A stretch of DNA of 64,000 nucleotides from an uncultured Pelagibacteraceae bacterium. GTDB taxonomy: Bacteria; Pseudomonadota; Alphaproteobacteria; Pelagibacterales; Pelagibacteraceae. The stretch spans positions 122,871 through 186,870 of the forward strand of contig CACIHO010000002.1 in NCBI GenBank assembly GCA_902586485.1. Reading direction: 5' to 3'. Within the stretch, counting starts at the first letter, position 1. Each line of letters opens with the position of its first letter. Below the pieces are notes generated by a model. That model saw nothing but the letters and a program-made list of their open reading frames with translations, searched no databases and had not been told where the DNA came from. A program made the translations under genes and the position numbers. Shown here piece by piece: positions 41,372 to 43,997 of the stretch.

Positions 41372-42091
41372 TTAAAAATTATCCTTAAAATCTCTTAATT
41401 TTGAAAAGGTTTTAACATCTTTTGCTCTTAAAAATATATTACACTCCAATTCCTCTTTTAAAGTTGAGGGTATCGTAGGAATTCCATTTTCTCTTAACTT
41501 TTTTATTTTTTCTATTTTTTTTTGTAAATCTTTGTTTTCAGAATCATATTTTTTGCAAAATTTTGCATTGTTAAGAGTGTATTCATGACCACAATAAATT
41601 TTTGAATCTTCTGGTAATAATTTAATTTTGTTTAAAGATTCAAACATTTCCTCATAAGAACCTTCAAATATTCTTCCACAACCAAGTGAGAAAAGTGTAT
41701 CTCCGGTAAAAACTATTTTTTCTTTAAAAAAATTAAAACAAATATGGCCTGAAGTATGTCCAGGTATATGCATAATTTTAGCTTCAAAGTTTTCGGCTTT
41801 CCATATTTGATTATCTTCTAACAATATGTCTATCTCTGGTATTCTTTTCGAGTCTCCTTTAAAACCTACAACAACTGATCCATATTTTTTTTTTAATTCT
41901 TGATTTCCTCCAATGTGATCATAGTGATGATGAGTATTAAGAATGTATTTTAATTTTATATTTTTATTCTTTAGGAAATTTATTATTGGCTCAGCCTCAC
42001 TGGGATCTACAATACACGCAGAATTGTTACTTTCGTCTATTATTAAATAGCTATAGTTGTCTTGAAGACAAGGTATAATTTCAATACGCAT
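41372..42091 (-). CDS. gloB: Hydroxyacylglutathione hydrolase (glyoxalase II)
   Basis: THHHYDHIGGN, HIPGHTSGH, FTGDTLFSLGCGRIFEG, YCGHEYT. Confidence 0.95.
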   Translation of the reverse strand: MRIEIIPCLQDNYSYLIIDESNNSACIVDPSEAEPIINFLKNKNIKLKYILNTHHHYDHIGGNQELKKKYGSVVVGFKGDSKRIPEIDILLEDNQIWKAENFEAKIMHIPGHTSGHICFNFFKEKIVFTGDTLFSLGCGRIFEGSYEEMFESLNKIKLLPEDSKIYCGHEYTLNNAKFCKKYDSENKDLQKKIEKIKKLRENGIPTIPSTLKEELECNIFLRAKDVKTFSKLRDFKDNF

Positions 42092-42092
42092 T

Positions 42093-42689
42093 TTATTTTT
42101 CTATCAAAAATATACCTAGATCTGCAAACAAATTCTTAACTCCTAAATTACTCTGATTTATTATTGATGAATTAAGATTATTTAAAGCGAGTGATTTAAA
42201 AATTTTAATATCTTTTGATTTTACAAAGTGAAAAAAATCTTTGATTGTACACATATGTAAATTTGGTGTGTTATACCATTCATCTGGTAATGTTTTTGTA
42301 ATTGGCATTGTACCTTTAAATAATAAATGAAATCTTACTTTCCAGTATCCAAAATTAGGAATCGTAACTATTGCTTTTTTTCCGACTCTTAAAAGTTCAT
42401 CTAAAACTAATTCAGGATTAAGAAAAGCTTGCAGGGTTTGACTCAAAATAACATAATCAAATGATTTGTCTGGAAATTGTTTTAAATCTTTTTCAGCATT
42501 TCCTTCAATTACTGTTAAACCTTTTGCAATGCATTCTTGCACTCTTTCTTTTGAGATTTCTAATCCTCTTATATTTATGTTTTTATTATTCTTTAAAAAT
42601 TTCATCAAAGTTCCATCAGCACAACCTACATCTAAGACTTTCTTATCTTTTTCAATTAAATCTGCTATTACCTGAAATTCATTTTTCAT
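42093..42689 (-). CDS. metW: Methionine biosynthesis protein MetW (SAM-dependent methyltransferase-like)
   Basis: VLDVGCADGTLMKFLK, PNFGYWKVRFHLLFKGTMPITKTLPDEWYNTPNLHMCTIKDF; overlaps metX. Confidence 0.95.
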   Translation of the reverse strand: MKNEFQVIADLIEKDKKVLDVGCADGTLMKFLKNNKNINIRGLEISKERVQECIAKGLTVIEGNAEKDLKQFPDKSFDYVILSQTLQAFLNPELVLDELLRVGKKAIVTIPNFGYWKVRFHLLFKGTMPITKTLPDEWYNTPNLHMCTIKDFFHFVKSKDIKIFKSLALNNLNSSIINQSNLGVKNLFADLGIFLIEK

Positions 42690-43806
42690 AATTAATTTCC
42701 TCGTAAGATTTATCTAAAAAGTTTTTAAGTGCACTTAAGAAATCAGGAACGTCTAGTAAAAAGGAGTCGTGACCTTTATCCGACTCAATTTCTACAAATC
42801 CAACATCAGCTCCTATTGAGTTTAAAGCAATCACAATATCTTTGTTTTCTTGGGTTGGATAAAGCCAATCTGAAGTAAATGAAATTATAAAAAATTTCGC
42901 GTTTGTATTTTTAAATGCTTCTGAAAGATTACCATTGAATTGTTTTGCTAAATCAAAATAATCCATAGCTCTAGTAATATAAAGATAACTATTTGCATCA
43001 AATCTATCTACGAAAACTGAGCCCTGATATCTTAAATAACTTTCTATTTGAAAATCAGCGTCAAACCCAAATTTAAGATCTTCTCTCTCTTGCAACTTTC
43101 TTCCAAATTTTTCCTGCAAACCTTTTTTAGATAAGTAAGTAATATGAGCTGCCATTCTAGCTACTGCCAATCCTTTTCCAGGATTAGTATCGTTTGATGT
43201 ATAATTCCCATCTTTCCAATTACTATCAGCTGTAATAGCTTGTCTACCTAGTTCGTTAAAAGCAATATTTTGAGCTGAATGACTAGATGTGGTTGCTATC
43301 GGTATAACTGTTTTAGATTTATCAGGAAAGTTGCTAATAAACTGAAGGACTTGCATACCTCCCATTGAACCACCAGTTATAGAAAACAGTTTATCAATAC
43401 CAAAATGATCAAGTAAATTATATTGAGCATTCACCATATCATTAATTGTAATAACGGGAAAATTTGTTCCAAAAATTTTTTGATCAGGATCTTTATGACT
43501 TGGTCCGTACGACCCCATACATCCACCAATTACGTTAGAACAAATAACAAAATATTTATTTGTATCGATAGCTTTATCAGGACCTACTGCATAACTCCAC
43601 CAACCTTCTTTGTTAGTTACAGGGTTTATTCCGGTTAAAAATTGATCTCCTGTTAGAGCATGAAAAACTAATATTGCATTATCTTTTTTTGAATTAAGTG
43701 AACCGTAAGTTTCATAGGCAACTGGAAAATTTTTTATGCTCTTTCCACAGTCTAATTTCAGTGGTTTCTTTACAATTAAAGTTTTTATGTTTTTCTCAGT
43801 ATTCAT
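42679..43806 (-). CDS. metX: Homoserine O-acetyltransferase
   Basis: VAYETYGSLN, ITGGSMGGMQVLQF, SDWLYPTQENKDI, SDKGHDSFL. Confidence 0.96.
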   Translation of the reverse strand: MNTEKNIKTLIVKKPLKLDCGKSIKNFPVAYETYGSLNSKKDNAILVFHALTGDQFLTGINPVTNKEGWWSYAVGPDKAIDTNKYFVICSNVIGGCMGSYGPSHKDPDQKIFGTNFPVITINDMVNAQYNLLDHFGIDKLFSITGGSMGGMQVLQFISNFPDKSKTVIPIATTSSHSAQNIAFNELGRQAITADSNWKDGNYTSNDTNPGKGLAVARMAAHITYLSKKGLQEKFGRKLQEREDLKFGFDADFQIESYLRYQGSVFVDRFDANSYLYITRAMDYFDLAKQFNGNLSEAFKNTNAKFFIISFTSDWLYPTQENKDIVIALNSIGADVGFVEIESDKGHDSFLLDVPDFLSALKNFLDKSYEEINYEK

Positions 43807-43840
43807 AGTTTTTGACTGTTTCGAATTGTGAGAAAAAAAA

Positions 43841-43892
43841 CTATTTTAGCGGTTTTTTTTAAGCGCTCGCAATTCAGTTAAATCAGCGCATA
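43841..43892 (-). ncRNA. SAM-II riboswitch aptamer upstream of metX
   Basis: Minus strand TATGCGCTGATTTAACTGAATTGCGAGCGCTTAAAAAAAACCGCTAAAATAG; matches the SAM-II core GCGCUGAUUUAAC...UUGC.AGCGC...GCUAAAA in spacing and sequence, and lies upstream of the classic target gene. Confidence 0.92.
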
Positions 43893-43997
43893 ATTTTTTT
43901 ACTAGAACTTATTTATTATGTCAATTTTTTAAAAAATCCTCTTATTCTCTATAAAATTTTGTAATTTTATCTATAAAGAGCACATAAATTAAAAAAA

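Follow-up and report, generated by a model that had tools for sequence, protein, structure and literature searches.

The metX leader on the minus strand of a Pelagibacteraceae DNA stretch of 64,000 nucleotides (the window) carries a SAM-II aptamer whose pseudoknot helix P2 ends exactly at a tract of eight U residues, and no terminator hairpin was found between this aptamer and the metX start codon. Downstream of the U-tract, related leaders share a block that is complementary to the aptamer. We propose, with a probability of roughly 45%, that this leader is a SAM-dependent OFF switch for metX-metW that would act on transcription; its terminator would be the SAM-bound pseudoknot together with the U-tract, without a dedicated hairpin. 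The SAM-II aptamer and its position before metX in SAR11 are already published (PMC5069961; PMC2704228). It appears that the novelty lies in the platform, as a hairpin-less platform is not described in the literature examined, which did not extend to the SAM-V paper (Poiata 2009).

The minus-strand element is almost certainly a SAM-II aptamer before metX, and SAM binding by this copy is expected from its sequence. Positions 43891-43840 of the minus strand read AUGCGCUGAUUUAACUGAAUUGCGAGCGCUUAAAAAAAACCGCUAAAAUAGU, followed by U's. The sequence quoted in the first-pass annotation was recovered exactly on this strand as 51 nt from 43891 to 43841, with the end given as 43892 being one base too high. 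The SAM-II (metA motif) core reported there was also found: the pattern GCGCTGATTTAAC-N-TTGC-N-AGCGC occurs once in the 64-kb window, with 0 occurrences expected from 100 dinucleotide shuffles. In a cmscan of a 401-base search region, RF01726 (SAM-II; 32.9 bits, E = 1.4e-4, model positions 1-60 of 60) and RF00521 (25.2 bits, E = 9.9e-4, positions 1-79 of 79) both matched over the full model and on the correct strand. Searching the genome assembly of the window (1.07 Mb, 79% complete) with RF00521 placed the SAM-II before metX at the top with an E-value of 6.2e-4, and the runner-up had 0.3. P1 is intact as described (GCGCU with AGCGC). All SAM-contacting bases are kept (leader positions 10, 11, 19, 20, 21, 44, 45 and 47), with the contacts taken from the bhmT copy (U10, U11, A20, U21, U22, U46, A47 and A49; PMC11508383) and their correspondence assigned by hand. 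The placement before metX in a metX-metW-gloB cluster was borne out as well, since the AUG at 43806 lies 34 nt after 43841 and all three genes score above the NCBIfam cut-offs. No RF01826 (SAM-V) match was observed in the metX region; the SAM-V of this genome is located before metY (G000:C11:7572-7638). The aptamer pattern had no copy in viral contigs, and the metX loci related to that of the window are all from Pelagibacteraceae, which identifies the source genome as SAR11.

A covariance-model hit above the Rfam gathering threshold had been suggested as a check. The matches were significant and full-length, but no match within the window reached the gathering score (44 bits for RF01726 and 36 bits for RF00521). 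This is no evidence against SAM-II, because the published metX SAM-II of P. ubique HTCC1062 (SAR11_0217; PMC2704228) is also below gathering with 31.8 bits (RF01726) and 26.7 bits (RF00521), and the bhmT SAM-II of this strain (L271), which is reported to bind SAM with a KD of 1.2 uM (PMC5069961), was not detected by the models of Rfam release 15 even at E up to 5. As these known positives fall short, the gathering threshold was dropped as an arbiter; the shortfall in score lies with the models. Because the bhmT copy of HTCC1062 is missed, Rfam-based surveys probably undercount SAM-II in SAR11. Genome G106 was taken as HTCC1062 on the grounds that its SAM-II/SAM-V tandem at 1127471 (minus strand) lies inside the bhmT intergenic region 1127293-1127553 of PMC2704228.

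A SAR11-specific model, made from 22 rows with P1 only and with the window sequence among them, gave 77.3 bits for the window and matches in 283 of the 298 family genomes. The pseudoknot was assessed in 43 distinct SAR11 SAM-II sequences from the leaders of metX, metY, bhmT and other genes. In this set 95.3% of the pseudoknot cells were paired and 43 cells were changed on both sides, with a covariation score of 0.242 compared to 0.130 for shuffled sequences and no more than 0.080 for slid partners. P2a is invariant and 100% paired; P2b is 81% paired with both sides changing, and its pairs covary between C-G, U-A, A-U and U-G. Within the genus of the window (g1), the aptamer core is nearly invariant. 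The coordinates of the leader features and of the downstream genes are given in Table 1.

Table 1. Features of the metX leader and the downstream genes, in window coordinates.
Feature	Position	Strand	Basis or remark
Putative -35 box TTGACA	43919..43924	-	sequence
Putative -10 box TAAAAA, 17-nt spacer	43896..43901	-	sequence; TACAAA or TATAAA-like in relatives
P1 5′ strand GCGCU	43885..43889	-	cmscan; pair counts, one covarying pair
L1 pseudoknot strands ACU (P2b) and UUGC (P2a)	43869..43878	-	pair counts
Captured aptamer segment GAAUUGCGAG (3′ half of L1 and P1 3′ strand)	43866..43875	-	alternative-fold pairing
P1 3′ strand AGCGC	43863..43867	-	cmscan; pair counts
A8C of aptamer loop L3	43852..43860	-	pairs with GU8 43841-43833 in the alternative fold
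Pseudoknot 3′ strand GCUAAAAUAGU (P2a and P2b; with SAM-contacting U44, A45, A47)	43840..43850	-	cmscan; pair counts; PMC11508383
U8 tract directly 3′ of P2, no intervening hairpin	43833..43840	-	leader comparison
Anti-aptamer CUCACAAUUC	43823..43832	-	pairs with GAAUUGCGAG 43875-43866, 9/10; C23 opposed to A63
Second anti-aptamer element AGUCA	43813..43817	-	pairs with UGAUU 43885-43881; UCAGC-like in relatives
metX, homoserine O-acyltransferase	42679..43806	-	NF001209 508.6 bits, cut-off 331; acetyl/succinyl not distinguished by models
metW	42093..42689	-	TIGR02081 236.6 bits, cut-off 189.5
gloB, hydroxyacylglutathione hydrolase	41372..42091	-	TIGR03413 285.7 bits, cut-off 200.8

Upstream of the aptamer, a putative promoter (TTGACA-17-TAAAAA) ends about 7 nt before P1, and TTGACA precedes the aptamer in every g1 metX leader displayed. 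A simple consensus scan missed this promoter because its -10 box lacks the T at position 6. The arrangement implies a transcription start at about 43891-43889, putatively at the first base of P1; an equal distance between promoter and P1 has been described for SAM-II (PMC1273637). The hisC gene is divergent from the metX-metW-gloB cluster.

To describe the expression platform, 166 copies from genus g1 were reduced to 138 distinct parsed leaders. These leaders are kin, so that their counts do not represent independent events. A run of five to nine U's immediately follows the G of P2b in all 138 leaders, with U8 in 95 of them, and the tract is followed by CUCNCAAUUC or a close variant and, further 3′, by a UCAGC-like element. 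A hairpin terminator between aptamer and metX was found neither in the window leader nor in any other g1 metX leader, and a scan of the window gave no terminator-like site. Neither the P2 3′ strand (GCUAAAAUAGU) nor the 34 nt before the AUG contains a GGAG-like Shine-Dalgarno (SD) sequence.

The conserved block downstream of the U-tract is complementary to the aptamer. Among 98 unique leaders folded with ViennaRNA, the helix of this anti-aptamer (H1) is part of the minimum free energy (MFE) structure in all 98, the helix of the second element (H2) in 93, and an A/U hairpin between the A's of L3 (A6-9 across leaders) and the U-tract in 96, as well as in the window; P1 is present in none. Conservation is 97-100% at the nine paired anti-aptamer positions and 69% at the unpaired one, and the mismatch opposite C23 is constant in the helix of g1 leaders. 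The spacer after the anti-aptamer is mostly 31-66% conserved (first base 86%). Variants of the second element (UCAGC, UAGC, CAGUC) lie about 10-15 nt before the AUG and are complementary to the P1 5′ strand and the start of L1. When the spacer was compared with the aptamer 5′ strand, the stem score was 5.89 versus 4.49 for shuffled spacers (z = 15), with the peak at the segment of P1 5′ and L1 start, and duplex energies between aptamer and downstream sequence had a mean z of -5.0. The window leader adopts the same alternative fold at -15.5 kcal/mol, with a z of only -1.9 against its own dinucleotide shuffles; given this modest value, support for the fold comes from the comparison and not from the single fold. 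Little covariation is seen in the anti-aptamer helix because its aptamer side is invariant within the genus. Two relatives carry CTCGC(A/T)AATTC in place of the block and keep the pairing with the aptamer. As modelled, these leaders very probably share a conserved alternative fold that is mutually exclusive with the SAM fold.

The direction of regulation was assigned from the product of metX. This is a methionine precursor, so SAM should turn metX off, and the SAM fold should therefore correspond to termination and the free fold to read-through. With ample SAM, P1 and the SAM-stabilized pseudoknot P2 would form in the nascent leader. As P2 ends exactly at the U8 tract, the ligand-bound pseudoknot would take the role of the terminator stem, and polymerase would be released some 34 nt short of the metX start. 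In the SAM fold the end of the stem abuts the U-tract and 8 U's extend from the stem to the release point, like in an intrinsic terminator. When SAM is scarce, P2 would be unstable and polymerase would read through. In the read-through RNA, CUCACAAUUC and the AGUCA/UCAGC element would take both P1 strands and the core of L1, the A8 loop would pair with U8, and the leader would be locked in a fold that is blind to SAM, so that metX is made. In the free fold the U-tract and both P1 strands are hidden. Synthesis of the anti-aptamer follows that of the U-tract and comes too late to prevent termination there, which is why we assign it this later locking role. A function as a classical antiterminator was discarded for the same order of synthesis.

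Control of transcription rather than translation is probable, and in alpha-proteobacteria the commonest association of SAM-II is with transcription terminators (PMC2258182). That the pseudoknot itself is the terminator, with termination at the U-tract, is a tentative reading that falls somewhat short of an even chance. Still more tentative is the full scheme for Pelagibacter metX leaders, in which the SAM-completed P2 against U8 would be the intrinsic terminator stem and the anti-aptamer would lock the read-through RNA in the free fold. Against a pseudoknot terminator, P2 is A/U-rich and weak beside the U-tract, and many relatives no longer have its last pair, A14-U52. According to a 2024 review, a ligand-stabilized intrinsic terminator is possible in principle and unlikely to turn up, as SAM would have to bind inside the exit channel of the polymerase (PMC10907184). 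Conservation of U8 is also explained by its pairing with A8. The four HTCC1062 transcripts that respond most strongly to sulphur do not include metX.

The main rival at the level of transcription is Rho loading. In this case the free fold would hide the pyrimidine-rich U8CUCACAAUUC... stretch, and SAM would expose about 35 unstructured nucleotides before the AUG on which Rho could load. Such a mechanism accounts for an anti-aptamer that lies 3′ of the U-tract and covers it, and the stretch is single stranded in the SAM-bound leader. Riboswitches that work through Rho are known from other Gram-negatives. However, a Rho site would be expected to be longer and richer in C than the exposed stretch, and in sister genera this place is taken by an intrinsic terminator, so that we consider Rho loading unlikely. 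A post-transcriptional switch, which we hold to be rather unlikely, would let the two folds equilibrate on the full leader and alter ribosome access or protection of the 5′ end, either through translation or through mRNA stability. Such a switch would be in keeping with the two conserved folds of the full-length leader, which exclude each other, and the crystallised metX SAM-II is generally held to work by SD sequestration. In addition, enforcing P1 in the window leads to pairing of AUAGUUUUU with AAAAACUAU over the start codon. This pairing between U-run and start codon is not conserved in the spacers of relatives, though, and no SD-like sequence lies near the AUG. The predicted accessibility of the AUG is nearly equal in the two states (0.61 vs 0.55 unpaired), with no consistent difference across 136 leaders. 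Translational control by hiding of the start codon was dropped for lack of a consistent change in accessibility.

Two further explanations were weighed. The downstream block could be a protein-binding site on DNA or RNA whose complementarity to the aptamer is incidental, and the block is indeed too uniform for covariation to prove pairing. Where the block varies, however, it does so at the unpaired position, which can be A, T, C or missing, the two relatives with a rebuilt block have retained the pairing, and the variable second element stays complementary to the other P1 strand (z = 15), which makes a protein site very improbable. It is hardly credible that the aptamer is a relic which decayed without a platform after loss of the terminator in g1. 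Such decay would fit the lack of a hairpin and the sub-gathering Rfam scores, but a nearly invariant aptamer core stands beside a variable spacer, the platform block is conserved as strongly as the aptamer, and the match is retained in 283 of 298 family genomes.

In metX leaders of family f2 and of genera g8 and g10, a compact terminator hairpin (about -10 to -13.6 kcal/mol) with a U-run lies downstream of the SAM-II aptamer. Across metX leaders, the hairpin terminator and the adjacent U-tract are nearly mutually exclusive, with one g10 leader carrying both. In the MetX tree, g10 is sister to g1 (support 0.994) and g8 comes next. This distribution suggests that g1 lost the hairpin and that a U-tract at P2 and an anti-aptamer came to replace it. 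The terminator loops of the sister leaders, like those of the tandem loci, usually contain a sequence complementary to the aptamer core (e.g. GCUAAAGCG with CGCUUUAGC); the mean stem score between terminator loop and core is 8.56 compared to 4.82 for shuffled sequences. Since these loops complement the core, they may do the same job as the g1 anti-aptamer, holding the free aptamer apart, with a different pairing partner.

Several observations were made on other SAR11 SAM-II loci. In L212-L236, L264-L268 and L009-L038 the terminator loop usually contains the complement of the SAM-binding core, and both sides covary in L219, L221 and L232; in those loci the antiterminator strand seems to be provided by the aptamer core itself. 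Among the genus g8 metX leaders (L219-L221, L224, L228, L230 and L231), L224 and its neighbours presumably differ very little from the Sargasso Sea metX SAM-II of the crystal structure (2QWY), and in them the aptamer is followed by the terminator GCCCAGUUUAGCUGGGCU9 and then the AUG. In L217 and L226 (genus g6), SAM-II lies directly before metW, as judged by its N-terminus, instead of metX, and the terminator hairpins are weak or consist of A/U only. A compact SAM-II-like element was also observed in the genome of the window (L269:1440-1480), directly before SAM-V (L269:1501-1567) and metY, as well as in L270 (HTCC1062 metY), L272, L273, L274 and L275, which comprise metY leaders and one mmuM-like leader. 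It has a P1 of about 4 bp (such as AGCC/GGCU), an L3 of about 7 nt and the core GAUUUG..CCUAUUGC..GCUAAAA.GGA. Next comes AAUCGG, which is complementary to the CCGAUU of the element. For these leaders Rfam gives SAM-V alone.

The closest known system is the metX SAM-II of HTCC1062, which precedes the same gene in the same genus-level group and has a near-identical aptamer. Its leader (G106/L241) contains the U-tract and the CUCACAAUUC block as in the window, with small sequence differences only; the text examined from PMC2704228 describes the aptamer and not this platform. The SAR11 SAM-II/SAM-V tandem has the SAM-II aptamer, the bacterial family and a proposed control at the transcription level in common with the window. 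In the tandem, however, a separate intrinsic terminator stem and SAM-V follow SAM-II, and the metX leader of the window carries neither. We take 2QWY, from a Sargasso Sea metagenome, to share its aptamer architecture, loop lengths and contact bases with the window. It is the textbook direct-occlusion riboswitch, in which the RBS is said to be hidden in P2 (PMC10907184), whereas the P2 strand of the window (AUAGU) is without an SD-like sequence. The textbook view of RBS hiding in 2QWY itself is called into question by the close SAR11 relatives that have a terminator hairpin at this place. In Sinorhizobium meliloti, SAM-II has a transcriptional (metZ) or a translational (metA) output, and metZ uses a typical Rho-independent terminator without an aptamer-adjacent U-tract, unlike the window (PMC9373788).

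The leader studied here is shorter than 90 nt, is conserved in a very abundant bacterial group and seems to attenuate its gene without a terminator hairpin. The nearest mechanistic parallels are Guanidine-IV and the hypothetical group of 'ligand-stabilised terminators' (PMC10907184), where a ligand-dependent pseudoknot is coupled directly to an intrinsic terminator. Guanidine-IV destabilizes its terminator and thereby acts as an ON switch, whereas the pseudoknot of the metX leader would be the terminator of an OFF switch. If the SAM-bound pseudoknot terminates transcription alone, this leader would represent a minimal natural terminator built by its ligand.
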